From Caulifigura coniformis (GTDB lineage: Bacteria; Planctomycetota; Planctomycetia; Planctomycetales; Planctomycetaceae), in assembly GCF_007745175.1 (NCBI RefSeq), contig NZ_CP036271.1:1570154-1634153 (forward strand): a stretch of 64,000 bases of DNA. The letters run 5' to 3'. The notes beneath the pieces were generated by a model. The model worked only from the letters and a program-made list of their open reading frames with translations, was not told the origin of the DNA and did no database searches. Within the stretch, counting starts at the first letter, position 1, and each line of letters opens with the position of its first letter. Positions 31,339-36,243 of this stretch are shown in pieces. Made by a program: the position numbers and the translations under genes.

Positions 31339-32520
31339 ATGCCCGAAGTGTCCATCTCCCCCACCACTCCCGATCCCGCCCATCTGGCGGACCGACTCAA
31401 GGCCGAAGCCCGGCGACTGGGGTTCGACCTCGTCGGCATTGCCCCGGCCGCCGCCCCGACCACGACCCCCGAGTTCCGGGAATGGCTCAGCGCGGGCTTC
31501 GCCGGAGAGATGCACTACCTCGAACGGCGGCGCGAGGCGTACGACCACCCCGCCTCGATGCTGACCGAAGTTCGCACCGTCATCATGCTGGGCGTCAACT
31601 ACTACAGCGGAGACGAACCCGAACCGCAGCCCGGCGACGGCCGCGTGGCCCGCTATGCCCGCATCCCGGCCGATTATCACGATGTGCTGCGTGCCCGCCT
31701 CAAAGAGCTGGCCGCCTTGCTCCACAACGCCCATCCCAGATGCCGCACGCGCGGAGTCGTCGACACCGCTCCGCTGCTCGAACGCGACTTCGCCCGTCGG
31801 GCCGGCCTCGGCTGGTTCGGCAAGAACACCATGCTGCTCAACAAACGTTTGGGAAGCTGGTTCTTTCTCGCAGCGCTCCTCACCGACGTCGAACTGCCGG
31901 CCGATGCCCCGCACGATGCGGCCCATTGCGGAACGTGCACGCGCTGCCTCGAGGCCTGCCCGACCGACGCCTTCATCGCCCCCTATGTGCTCGATGCCCG
32001 GCGCTGTATCAGCTACCTCACGATCGAACTCGGCGCTCGCCCGATCGAGGAATCCCTGCTTTCCGGAATGCAGGACTGGGCATTCGGCTGCGACATCTGC
32101 CAGGAAGTCTGTCCGTGGAACCGGAAGGCTCCTCTCGCTGAAGACCAGGCCTTTCGCGCCGGTCCCGAGAACAGCTCACTGAGGCTCGCCCCGCTGCTGG
32201 AGATGGACGAATCACGGTTCCAGCAGCAGTTCGGACAGACGCCTCTCGCTCGCCCGGGACTGGAAGCCCTGACGCGCAGCGCCTGCCTGGCCGTCGGTAA
32301 CGCCGGAACCCTCGAAGACCTCCCGACCCTCGCGGCAGCGAAGGCTTCAGCGTCACCACTGATCCGCGACGCCGCTGGATGGGCTGAGGCCCGATTGCGA
32401 GATCGCGCGGGATCGAGGGGCGAATTTGCGGAAAACAACGAATGTGCCGATCTGGCCGTGAAGTCGGACGCGATGCACGCTGGGGAGTCGAACGCCCGCG
32501 GACATTCGGGTTCCCGCTAA
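31339..32520 (+). CDS. queG: Epoxyqueuosine reductase
   Basis: A 393-residue QueG. The N-terminal cobalamin-binding region contains GFDLVGIAPA. Two 4Fe-4S motifs follow, CGTCTRCLEACPTDA and CDICQEVCPWN, then HEAT-like helices. The enzyme reduces epoxyqueuosine to queuosine in tRNAs with GUN anticodons, the last step of Q biosynthesis. The final 30 residues or so (acidic and Asn/Ser-rich, after RLRDRAGSRG) are not part of the usual domain and may be a tail from a drifted stop codon. It is divergent from the efflux adaptor gene. Confidence 0.95.
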   Translation: MPEVSISPTTPDPAHLADRLKAEARRLGFDLVGIAPAAAPTTTPEFREWLSAGFAGEMHYLERRREAYDHPASMLTEVRTVIMLGVNYYSGDEPEPQPGDGRVARYARIPADYHDVLRARLKELAALLHNAHPRCRTRGVVDTAPLLERDFARRAGLGWFGKNTMLLNKRLGSWFFLAALLTDVELPADAPHDAAHCGTCTRCLEACPTDAFIAPYVLDARRCISYLTIELGARPIEESLLSGMQDWAFGCDICQEVCPWNRKAPLAEDQAFRAGPENSSLRLAPLLEMDESRFQQQFGQTPLARPGLEALTRSACLAVGNAGTLEDLPTLAAAKASASPLIRDAAGWAEARLRDRAGSRGEFAENNECADLAVKSDAMHAGESNARGHSGSR

Positions 32521-32640: not shown

Positions 32641-33357
32641 GTGCCCAGCAATCACGAACGCGTCGCCACTGCTCTCGATCTGCTGACCGCCGGCATGGCC
32701 GACTTCGCGGAGACGAAGCTCCGCGAAGTGTATAAGGAGAACTGGGTCAACTCCGTCTCCGGAAGTTTCCGTGATGACCGGAACCGCCTCTCCGCCGACG
32801 GCCTCAGCATCCGCTGGGATGCCCACGCCCTGCTGACCGTCATGTGGGATCAGTGGAACGCCGTCTTCCGGACTTCGCTCGGCCACGCCGAACGCAGCCT
32901 CGTCAGCGAACTGCGCGAGTACCGGAACCGCTGGGCCCACCAGAAAGAATTCGACTTCGACGACACCTACCGCATTCTCGACAGCGTCCGCCGACTGCTC
33001 CAGGCCGCCGAGTCCCGGAAACTGCCGGAACTGGAGTACCAGAAGCGCGATCTGCTCGAGGCCTATGTCGCCGAGGAAGTGAACACCCAGATCCAGCAGT
33101 CGATGTTCAACCGCAACCGGCCGTGGGTCATTGCGTTCTACACCTTCTGCTTCGGCGTCACCTTCTACAACCTGGTCGCGAAACGCGACATGACCGAGCC
33201 GTCCCGATACTTCTTCATCTCGACGCTGCTCCTCGCGTTCATCTACCTGATCTATCGCCAGTACAGGATGGACCCGCCGATCCTGTTCGGCCCGCACGAA
33301 TGCCAGCGCTGCCGGAAGATCATCTATCGCAAGGAATGCCCTTACTGCGAGTCGTAG
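32641..33357 (+). CDS. Membrane-anchored Swt1-type HEPN domain protein with zinc ribbon
   Basis: A 238-residue protein. Residues about 4-125 match the Swt1-type HEPN helical domain, including HAERSLVSELREYRNRWAH; the HEPN RNase motif Rx4H is Arg95-Asn-Arg-Trp-Ala-His100. A charged helical linker follows. TM helices lie at about 161-180 and 190-206. The C-terminal tail is a zinc ribbon with Cys at 221, 224, 233 and 236. HEPN proteins with Rx4-6H are commonly RNases in toxin-antitoxin, phage defence and RNA processing systems. Here the catalytic site would face the cytoplasm if both termini are inside. The GTG start sits behind a hairpin. No antitoxin (MNT) gene adjoins it. Confidence 0.8.
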   Translation: MPSNHERVATALDLLTAGMADFAETKLREVYKENWVNSVSGSFRDDRNRLSADGLSIRWDAHALLTVMWDQWNAVFRTSLGHAERSLVSELREYRNRWAHQKEFDFDDTYRILDSVRRLLQAAESRKLPELEYQKRDLLEAYVAEEVNTQIQQSMFNRNRPWVIAFYTFCFGVTFYNLVAKRDMTEPSRYFFISTLLLAFIYLIYRQYRMDPPILFGPHECQRCRKIIYRKECPYCES

Positions 33358-33418
33358 GCCCGGCCGTCAGAAACGCGGATCCTTGACCGGTCGCCGGTCG
33401 CTCTCCACGCTGGGCCGC

Positions 33419-34327
33419 ATGTCGACCCTCCGCACCTACGCACAGCTCTGCCGCCTCCCCGCCGTCTTCACCGCGATGGCGGACGTCTTCATGGGCTATT
33501 TCGTTCTGCGCGGGGTCCGGCATCTGTCCGATCCTTCCATCCAGGGCCCCCAGACCCTGGCGGCCCTGGTCGTCGCCTCCAGTGCTCTGTATCTCGCGGG
33601 GATGGTGCTGAATGACGTGTTCGATCGCGAGATCGATGCCCGTGAACGCCCGCAGCGCCCGATCCCTTCCGGCCGCGTCAGCCTGCGGAACGCCATCCGC
33701 CTTGCCGTGTTGTTGATCGTGACAGGCCTCATCGCCAGCCAGCTTGCCGGCTATAAGTCCCTGCTGGTCGCGCTGCTGCTGCTCGTGAACATCGTGCTGT
33801 ACGATGGCTGGGGAAAGCACACCCCGCTGGGGCCGCTGCTGATGGGGGGCTGCCGATTCCTGAACGTCATTCTGGGCGGCAGTTCGGGGGCCGGAGACGT
33901 GTCCCAGCTCTTCACCTCGCACGGGTCGCTCGTGGCTACGGGCCTCGCGATCTATGTCGCCGGCGTCACCATCTTCGCGAAGAAGGAAGCGGAAACGAGC
34001 GGACGCGGCGGACTGATCTTCGGCCAGGTCGTCCTGAATCTCGGGTTGCTGACCACCGCCGTCTGGATTGCGCCACACATGGACTCGACCCGCGCGCTCG
34101 CAACGCTGGGAGTCATCGCCGTCGTCATCAATCGCCGCGCGCTCCAGGCAGTCGCGGATCTGCGACCGGCCAGGGTGCAGGCCGCAGTCCGCATCATGCT
34201 CCTGTCGATCATCACCATCGATGCCACGGTGATCTACACCGCGACAGGAGACACGGGGACCGCCCTCGCCGTCGTGGCACTGCTGTTTCCGTCGCTCCTG
34301 CTGGGCAAGTGGATGACGATGACGTAA
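33419..34327 (+). CDS. UbiA-family prenyltransferase
   Basis: A 302-residue polytopic membrane protein with about eight or nine TM helices. The first Asp-rich motif is NDVFDREIDARERPQRPIPS, near residue 62, the site that binds the prenyl diphosphate through magnesium. The start YAQLCRLPAVFTAMADVFMGYF resembles EboC-type UbiA proteins more than menaquinone or haem O synthases, but no other ebo gene is adjacent, so the acceptor is unknown. ATG 33419 is preferred over a TTG at 33383. Confidence 0.87.
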   Translation: MSTLRTYAQLCRLPAVFTAMADVFMGYFVLRGVRHLSDPSIQGPQTLAALVVASSALYLAGMVLNDVFDREIDARERPQRPIPSGRVSLRNAIRLAVLLIVTGLIASQLAGYKSLLVALLLLVNIVLYDGWGKHTPLGPLLMGGCRFLNVILGGSSGAGDVSQLFTSHGSLVATGLAIYVAGVTIFAKKEAETSGRGGLIFGQVVLNLGLLTTAVWIAPHMDSTRALATLGVIAVVINRRALQAVADLRPARVQAAVRIMLLSIITIDATVIYTATGDTGTALAVVALLFPSLLLGKWMTMT

Positions 34328-34365: not shown

Positions 34366-36243
34366 ATGGATTTCCTCCGTCTCGGCCCCCGCATCACCCT
34401 TGTCCCCGTGCTTCATGGCAGCGGCGATTTCGCCGTCGCCGTGCGGCGGCTGATGTTGATGGAGCGGTTCGACTGCCTGGCGGTGCCGCTCCCTCCCTCG
34501 TTCCAGCACGACGTCGAACGCGCGATCGACGTCCTCCCCGCGGTCTCCGCCGTGATTCAACGCGAGTCCCCCCGCTTTGAAGCGACCGACTGGTCCCCGG
34601 AAGAAGACGACTCGGATGAGCCCGACGAGTCGAAGGCCTGCAGCTATGTCCCGATCGATCCCTGCCAGCCGGTGATCGCGGCGCTGCGGGTGGCCTTGCA
34701 GGAGAACATTGCGCGGGCCTTCATCGATCGTGAGTCGGAAGAATACCTCCCGGCAGCACTCAACCTTCCCGATGCCTACGCCCTGAAGAAGACGACGCTC
34801 GACCGGTTCGCCGCCGCCGTTCTTCCCAGCCTGCCGCGGCCCCCTGAGGGGGCCTGGAACGACCGCATCCTGCACATGGCAGCCCGGCTGAGGGAACTGG
34901 AACTGCGTCACAAGTCGATTCTCTGCCTGTGTGCCGTCAGCGACTGGCCCTGGATCCGCGAAGCGTTCACCGAAAAGTCGCCCCCTCCCGAATCGGCCGC
35001 CGAGGTCGAGGAGACCGAACTGTGCGGCGTCGACCCCGCCTCGATGCTCTTCTTTCTCGGAGAACTCCCGCACATCACGGGCCTCTATGAACGGGCCCGC
35101 GCCGACCTCGACGACGATGAAAACCTCTCGCTCGATGGAGTCAAGAACCTCCTGCTGGTCGCCCGAGACCGTTACCGGGCCGATCTCAAGCAGCGGGCCC
35201 GCAGCATCACGCCGCATCTGCTGGCGACCATGCTCAAGTACATCCGCAACCTCTCGCTCATCGAACGCCGGCTCACTCCCGATCTGTACACGCTGATCGT
35301 GGCGGGAAGGCAGATGGCGGGAGACCAGTACGCGATCCATGTCGCCGAAACCGCACGCGACTATCCCTACCCCGCACAGGCCGCGTGGCCCGAAGTGCGG
35401 TTTGGCATCGGCAAGGTCCGCATGCCGGACGGCGACACCTTGATGGCCAAATCCCGGCTGCCAGGTCAGCCGGTGGTCTGGCGGACCCTCGAGCTCAACC
35501 GCCGGCCGCCGAAGATCGACCAGATGCGCTGGGCCATGCAATGGAACCCCTTCAGTCAGTGCAGCTGGCCCCCCGAGGATACGACGATCGAGCGGTTCCG
35601 GACGGCCGTGAAAGATCAGGCCCTGAGCCTGCTGGGACAGGATCTCGCTCGCACCGAGAAGTTCAGCACCAGCCTGCTTGATGGTCTCGACATCCGTGAG
35701 ACGCTCCGCAACTGGCACACGGGCGATCTCTACGTCAAAGTCCTCCCGCCGACGCGCGGCAGCCTCGACTGCGTCCTGATGATCTTCGACTCACCGGCCG
35801 ACCCGCGCGAGTATCCGTGGCGCATCACCTGGCATGCCGAGCACCAGGACGAGTCGACCCTCACGTTTTTCGCGACCCACTTCGCGAAGGACATTGTCGG
35901 CCCTGGTATCGCCGCCGCCACCTACGGCGGCGCCATGTTCCTGTTTCCGCCGCGGGCGATCCCCGATGTCTGGCGTGACAAGCGGTTCGACTTCGCCGAC
36001 ACGCTCGAAGAACGCCTGCTGGCCGCGGCCTGCTTTCATTCGCATGAACGACACATCGCGCTCCTTTCGCCCTCCCCGCCGGGGCCGGGCTGGCGGCGAC
36101 TCGCAAAAAAATACGGCAAGCGACTGATCCACGTGCCGCTGTCGAAGTTCAGCCAGGAAACGATTCAGCGGCTGCGGACGTTCCACGTCCTGAACGGCCG
36201 TCAGGTCCGCAGCTATGCCGAGCACTTTATCCGCAAGGCGTAG
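34366..36243 (+). CDS. Large conserved-looking protein of unknown function
   Basis: A 625-residue soluble-looking protein without signal peptide or TM helices. It opens with GPRITLVPVLHGSGDFAVAVRRLM and FDCLAVPLPPSFQ, a layout resembling the beta-strand plus HxG motif and paired-strand organisation of TraB/EreA/DUF5682-type proteins, but the likeness is weak. The middle is helical (about 150-320). The last third has Trp-rich blocks such as MRWAMQWNPFSQCSWPPE and ends with a Ser/Pro-rich segment. It stands alone after the UbiA gene (38 bp gap), possibly co-transcribed. Function not assigned. Confidence 0.75.
   Translation: MDFLRLGPRITLVPVLHGSGDFAVAVRRLMLMERFDCLAVPLPPSFQHDVERAIDVLPAVSAVIQRESPRFEATDWSPEEDDSDEPDESKACSYVPIDPCQPVIAALRVALQENIARAFIDRESEEYLPAALNLPDAYALKKTTLDRFAAAVLPSLPRPPEGAWNDRILHMAARLRELELRHKSILCLCAVSDWPWIREAFTEKSPPPESAAEVEETELCGVDPASMLFFLGELPHITGLYERARADLDDDENLSLDGVKNLLLVARDRYRADLKQRARSITPHLLATMLKYIRNLSLIERRLTPDLYTLIVAGRQMAGDQYAIHVAETARDYPYPAQAAWPEVRFGIGKVRMPDGDTLMAKSRLPGQPVVWRTLELNRRPPKIDQMRWAMQWNPFSQCSWPPEDTTIERFRTAVKDQALSLLGQDLARTEKFSTSLLDGLDIRETLRNWHTGDLYVKVLPPTRGSLDCVLMIFDSPADPREYPWRITWHAEHQDESTLTFFATHFAKDIVGPGIAAATYGGAMFLFPPRAIPDVWRDKRFDFADTLEERLLAAACFHSHERHIALLSPSPPGPGWRRLAKKYGKRLIHVPLSKFSQETIQRLRTFHVLNGRQVRSYAEHFIRKA

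Follow-up and report, generated by a model that had tools for sequence, protein, structure and literature searches.

A predicted membrane-tethered HEPN endoribonuclease with a C-terminal zinc ribbon, well conserved in the Planctomycetaceae

The closest described counterpart of the protein studied here is a group of proteins with an N-terminal HEPN domain, a pair of transmembrane (TM) helices and a C-terminal Zn-ribbon, reported by Anantharaman et al. (2013) for Planctomyces brasiliensis gi 325108440 (PMC3710099, here cited for Table 1 and for the passages on the groups named below). It forms the third membrane-associated HEPN group of that article, its domains are predicted to be cytoplasmic, and the section on this group names no HEPN family for it. 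The article also draws a likeness to the KEN domain of Ire1 and to C6orf70, membrane-attached HEPN-type RNases that are eukaryotic and have other HEPN families and architectures, so that the analogy with the present protein is functional only. In contrast to that of the present protein, the HEPN domain of eukaryotic Swt1 occurs in fusion with a PIN domain and is predicted to be inactive; it has lost the motif and is thought to sense RNA (PMC3710099). HEPN proteins fused to DUF499 are reported from restriction-modification operons, and the bacterial ones are called active (PMC3710099, Table 1). In a literature search with subscription journals mostly outside its scope, we found no RNase experiment on the HEPN-2TM-ribbon group, including in the portions covered of PMC12165695 and PMC9519451.

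The window, i.e. the whole stretch of 64,000 nucleotides analysed here, encodes a protein with the same order of HEPN domain, two TM helices and zinc ribbon, and we know of no difference between it and the 2013 group. Planctomyces brasiliensis is now Rubinisphaera brasiliensis in the taxonomy and belongs to Planctomycetaceae, a family named in many of the homologue titles. Judged by domain order and taxonomy, the window protein probably belongs to this group. The initial annotation had called the combination unusual, and this holds in so far as no ribbon form was seen in 18 loci from outside the family (see below); the architecture itself is not new, having been in print since 2013 for Planctomyces brasiliensis (PMC3710099). 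The present analysis extends that prediction in several respects: the motif proves to be invariant, the gene is spread through one family, the loci read from other families showed no ribbon form, no operon or mobile context is shared across the family, and the protein is separate from larger HEPN proteins. The HEPN-DUF499 (Ava_2192-like) proteins of loci L070-L072 are 52-56% identical to the window protein over residues ~3-146 and carry the same RNRWAH; L070 (a bacterium MAG) and L072 (Desulfobulbus) combine HEPN_Swt1 with DUF499 in ~1110 aa, whereas the window protein has 238 aa and no DUF499. No ribbon motif was present in the stretches read of the larger HEPN proteins.

The gene runs from GTG (32641) to TAG (33357) on the forward strand and is open throughout (Table 1). 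The Pfam profile HEPN_Swt1 (PF18731) matched residues 11-122 with E = 7.7e-35 and 120.1 bits against a gathering cut-off of 27.5, spanning profile positions 2-113 of 115, and this is the single HEPN_Swt1 match in the own genome. The initial annotation had proposed a Swt1-type HEPN domain with an intact Rx4H motif from Arg95 to His100, two TM helices at about 161-206 and four cysteines at 221-236. The profile bears out the domain, the motif R95-NRWA-H100 lies at these residues, hydropathy confirms two helices while refining their limits to ~161-180 and 187-207, and the cysteines are found at 221, 224, 233 and 236. These four residues are predicted to bind zinc. The Pfam search revealed no DUF499 region in the 238 residues; NCBIfam gave one match at chance level (14.9 bits against a cut-off of 552), PADLOC gave only Cas8g (E 0.0084, taken as chance), and a comparison of the family profile with the sequences of solved structures gave two matches with E near 1, also taken as chance, including the Nop10 zinc ribbon (profile positions 215-239). 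A promoter and terminator scan found nothing.

Table 1. Coordinates of the gene, its predicted parts and its neighbours in the window
Feature	Position	Strand	Basis
HEPN_Swt1 - 2 TM - zinc-ribbon protein, whole gene, 238 aa	32641..33357	+	ORF, Pfam, alignment
Swt1-type HEPN domain, residues 11-122	32671..33006	+	Pfam PF18731, model of residues 1-135
Rx4H motif RNRWAH, residues 95-100, predicted active site	32923..32940	+	Invariance among homologues
TM helix 1, residues ~161-180, end of long model helix 128-180	33121..33180	+	Hydropathy, AlphaFold2
TM helix 2, residues ~187-207	33199..33261	+	Hydropathy, AlphaFold2 model
Predicted C-terminal short zinc ribbon CQRC-x8-CPYC, residues 221-236	33301..33348	+	Four Cys kept
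QueG-like gene, directly upstream of HEPN gene	31393-32520	+	Pfam
UbiA-family prenyltransferase, downstream	33383-34327	+	Pfam; closest EboC model
625-aa ORF beyond UbiA-like gene	34366-36243	+	No family over cut-off

To assess conservation, 73 loci (L001-L073) were used, which yielded 65 frames of 225-310 aa and, together with the window protein, 66 aligned sequences; 44 of these, window included, form a non-redundant set with less than 90% identity to each other. The alignment left out L001 and L073 (own genome), L028 (partial), L069 (cut by a contig end), and L029 and L070-L072 (other or large proteins). Since 66 sequences of this length align, 44 of them non-redundant, the domain and motif pattern is, as judged from the alignment, more than chance. 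Arg95, Asn96 and His100 are invariant in 44/44 sequences, as are D60, W72, F76, R77, R85, E90, L91, R92, D108, R111, D114, R118 and L120. Conservation of the Arg and the His had been set beforehand as a refuting test of the HEPN proposal, and both residues were found in every sequence, so that the proposal stands. The four ribbon cysteines are kept in 42/44 homologues. One exception, L030, is a second copy in genome G023 that has lost all four and retains the HEPN motif (as RNDWAH) and the hydrophobic pair; by its sequence it is a natural ribbon-less variant. In the other, L027, the frame stops after TM2 and before the ribbon. L015, which was retained among the 44, is interrupted by an in-frame stop at residue 30 and may be a pseudogene or reflect a sequencing fault.

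The invariant positions also bear on another reading, in which the protein would be a non-catalytic RNA-binding or scaffolding protein of the membrane, with a HEPN dimer that binds RNA or protein and an Rx4H motif kept for fold or binding. Such a role would agree with the many invariant residues besides R and H, with the closest solved fold being a eukaryotic Swt1 domain (4pqz, see below) and with the view that this HEPN domain is inactive and RNA-sensing (PMC3710099). However, R, N and H are invariant in 44/44, whereas eukaryotic Swt1 has lost the motif, and the DUF499-fused bacterial relatives are called active (PMC3710099, Table 1). We consider a purely non-catalytic role to be unlikely, while giving it more weight than the other alternatives discussed below.

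With regard to the membrane helices, the best 19-residue hydropathy stretches of the window protein were 162-180 (1.55) and 187-205 (1.40), and the best stretch inside residues 1-130 reached 0.68. The HEPN part of one homologue reaches 1.61 and thereby exceeds the weakest TM stretch of the family (1.32), which means that hydropathy alone cannot separate TM from HEPN in every homologue. The paired hydrophobic stretches were set to start at least 22 residues apart, and the loop lengths of 5-11 therefore have a built-in minimum. Lysines and arginines were counted over the 16 residues up to TM1 and the 15 residues after TM2. In the 44 sequences the mean K+R was 3.57 before TM1, 0.41 in the loop and 1.93 after TM2, the loop lying below the first flank in 41/44 and below the second in 36/44. 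It should be underlined that the window protein itself has two such residues in each of the three segments and so shows no inside bias; this emerges only from the family as a whole, and the topology is consequently deduced from the family. According to the positive-inside rule, K/R-rich flanks stay cytoplasmic, and this rule combined with the family charge pattern predicts a cytoplasmic location for HEPN domain and ribbon alike (N-in/C-in).

The AlphaFold2 model of the window protein (28 sequences) had a mean pLDDT of 87.4 and showed helices at 128-180 and 187-209, with the ribbon region less certain (pLDDT 62-75 per block of 10). In VIA-align the yeast Swt1 C-terminal domain (4pqz) came first for the full-length model (Z 8.9, 122 residues, 3.3 Å) and likewise for a HEPN-only model of residues 1-135 (pLDDT 85.1; Z 8.2, 113 residues, 3.2 Å), the identity being 9-10%. 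For the HEPN-only model it was followed by Csm6 (4rgp), 2hsb, 2jpu, 6tug, sacsin HEPN (3o10), 1ufb and 1wty; the first eight entries are thus of Swt1, Csm6 or small HEPN type, with Z from 8.2 to 6.1, and the first unrelated entry had 5.6. The entries without HEPN in their title we take to be HEPN proteins, archaeal ones among them. Foldseek alone gave nothing at E <= 0.001, either for the whole model or for the HEPN part. The initial annotation had named a profile search placing residues 1-130 outside HEPN as refuting; the Pfam match (E = 7.7e-35) puts residues 11-122 inside it, and the assignment withstood this check. The models support a HEPN helical fold, with Z values near 8 being modest for helical folds; for this reason, and because Foldseek was blank, the fold match backs the profile and could not stand alone.

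Homologues were present in 29/59 relative genomes and, in a separate search, in 42 loci of the named-genome collection. In Planctomycetaceae, the window's family, 28/37 genomes matched, 27 with one copy and G023 with two. The nine family genomes without a match (G004, G008, G009, G010, G014, G019, G022, G024 and G034) are all at least 95% complete. Among genomes from other families of the same class, only 1/22 matched, weakly and within a 1201-residue frame. In a sample of the phylum, HEPN_Swt1 was detected in 35/294 genomes, 15 of these in the window's family, and at least two family members lacked a match among the 55 of the 294 genomes listed. The ribbon form occurred in 15/15 matching family genomes, namely in 13 loci identified by script, in the window and in a short copy of G220 (L107) identified by eye. 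G220 also differs in content, as it has, besides the 243-aa ribbon form L107, a HEPN domain in an 1100-aa frame (L088) and a third weak match. The gene has probably been inherited vertically within the family. Two matching loci carry the MAG titles Kuenenia (L057) and Rhodopirellula (L059), which we take to belong outside the family and which would then speak against a strict family limit; they may be mislabelled bins.

No constant partner emerged from the gene neighbourhoods. Among 20 loci with less than 75% identity, any one neighbour gene (BLAST E 1e-8, 50% coverage; several loci with short flanks) was common to at most four, and on this ground a family-wide operon or toxin-antitoxin context was rejected. 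The QueG-like gene was also found beside the L002 and L031 copies (62%, nearest relatives), and, apart from the own genome, nowhere else among the 72 loci L001-L072, whereas the UbiA-like gene and the 625-aa ORF were absent from L002-L072 and present only in the own genome's L001; many of the loci searched had short flanks, and no flank exceeded ~5 kb. As the QueG-like neighbour is kept in the nearest relatives, a local link within the genus is conceivable. The UbiA-family protein scored 199.7 bits against the EboC model, below its 250-bit cut-off, and the 625-aa ORF had no Pfam match over cut-off (best E 0.16) and neither an NCBIfam match (E up to 1) nor a PADLOC family. A role as toxin, paired with an antitoxin encoded next to it, is highly improbable for the protein: HEPN-MNT toxins do share the fold (6m6u and 7bxo with the HEPN-only model, 8xeh with the full-length model), but no partner gene is kept, any neighbour occurring in at most 4/20 loci, and the flanking genes match the QueG and UbiA families. 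Consistently, no adjacent nucleotidyltransferase antitoxin was seen, the Pfam-tested neighbours in the window being QueG and UbiA, with no family for the 625-aa ORF.

PADLOC found no family at E <= 0.001 in seven neighbouring ORFs. Phage records contained no match to the window protein, and of the plasmid records 31 matched with none reaching 80% coverage, the best 15 of the 31 ending by residue 162; transport as phage or plasmid cargo was therefore rejected. In the one plasmid copy examined (Meiothermus), the HEPN gene is 3.3 kb long and has a DUF1156 gene and a helicase-related gene next to it. This copy, the frequent use of HEPN domains as defence effectors and the occurrence of HEPN-DUF499 relatives in operons with restriction-modification parts (PMC3710099) would fit a stand-alone anti-phage (abortive infection) effector in the membrane, triggered by infection and cutting RNA to stop growth. 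Such an effector appears quite unlikely here, since the gene is present in 28/37 family genomes (the nine absences being compatible with some patchiness), no neighbour is kept across the family, the phage and plasmid searches gave the above results, and the only PADLOC signal, apart from the blank neighbours, is the Cas8g match of the protein itself. The suggestion of a signal-gated toxin made in the initial annotation likewise found no backing, as no neighbour is kept family-wide, PADLOC was blank for the seven ORFs, and the helices are joined by a short loop, the first ending at 180 and the second starting at 187 in the model, so that a sensor domain outside would have little space.

The window protein is a real and well-conserved membrane-tethered HEPN protein and most likely has endoribonuclease activity. 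Our preferred reading, to which we assign a probability of roughly 0.57, is that of a non-essential HEPN endoribonuclease that targets RNA at the inner membrane, and the idea of membrane-localised RNA processing put forward in the initial annotation gains support from the profile, alignment, charge and model evidence. According to this reading, a two-helix hairpin would hold a presumably dimeric HEPN endoribonuclease on the cytoplasmic face of the inner membrane, and the short zinc ribbon would return to the cytoplasm beside it and probably help to bind RNA, the ribosome or a partner. It would cut RNA near the membrane and contribute to RNA turnover or a stress response without being essential, outside any mobile toxin or restriction system. 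We infer both the cleavage and the biological role from the HEPN_Swt1 score (120 bits), the motif in 44/44 and the cysteines in 42/44 sequences, the charge bias and the 4pqz match, as well as from the presence in 28/37 genomes, the separate tree branch (see below), the sharing of neighbours by no more than 4/20 loci and the published prediction (PMC3710099). Against it stand the fact that a Swt1-type HEPN domain can be inactive, as in eukaryotic Swt1 (PMC3710099), the lack of any RNase report for the group in the literature searched, the wide presence of RNase Y and RNase E/G in the same genomes (see below), the 9/37 family genomes without a match, the blank Foldseek search, the window protein's charges of 2, 2 and 2, the deviating L030 (no Cys), L027 (no ribbon) and L015 (stop), and the QueG-like neighbour in the nearest relative.

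A more specific version, in which the protein would be the bacterial equivalent of membrane RNA decay of the Ire1 type, is quite unlikely. Here, the HEPN endoribonuclease would descend from HEPN proteins of the restriction type. Tethered with its zinc ribbon at the planctomycete inner membrane, next to condensed RNA or to ribosomes bound to the translocon, it would cut membrane-bound mRNA or rRNA under envelope stress. RNase Y was over cut-off in 53/59 and RNase E/G in 55/59 of the relative genomes searched for homologues, the own genome included in both cases; given this wide distribution no missing function would be filled, and replacement of a missing membrane RNase was rejected. If the RNase prediction is right, much of the family (28/37 genomes sampled) would possess, in addition to RNase Y, a further RNA-cutting activity located at the membrane. 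Since the HEPN domain is related to those of defence-type proteins, the protein would then also lend itself as a simple system for studying how a nuclease of this kind can be tethered and turned to other use.

Outside the family, 21 HEPN_Swt1 matches were found in 20 genomes, 11 of them within frames of 1099-1199 aa. The ribbon form was absent in the 18/21 loci that were read, 13 by script (in part for the larger ones, whose loci were truncated) and the short loci L100, L102, L104, L105 and L106 by eye; the second match of G224 and those of G204 and G128 make up the remainder. In a quick tree of HEPN domains, with a midpoint root for drawing only, 53 membrane-type domains fell on one side of a branch and 16 others on the opposite side (SH-aLRT 95). 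Second copies of included genomes (L087, L089, L090 and L098) were left out of this tree, and L069 and L101 were not entered. The split fits one origin of the membrane type and does not prove its direction. Three of the short other-family loci (L100:719-1890, L102:1495-2750 and L104:1040-2375) encode a HEPN_Swt1-like protein of 188-193 aa right after a similar-looking gene of ~200-250 aa, and these pairs are possibly a conserved two-gene unit. L106:2-1650 contains a HEPN-like frame that scores weakly (21.7 bits, below cut-off) and is followed closely by an ORF that to us looks like CRISPR Cas1.
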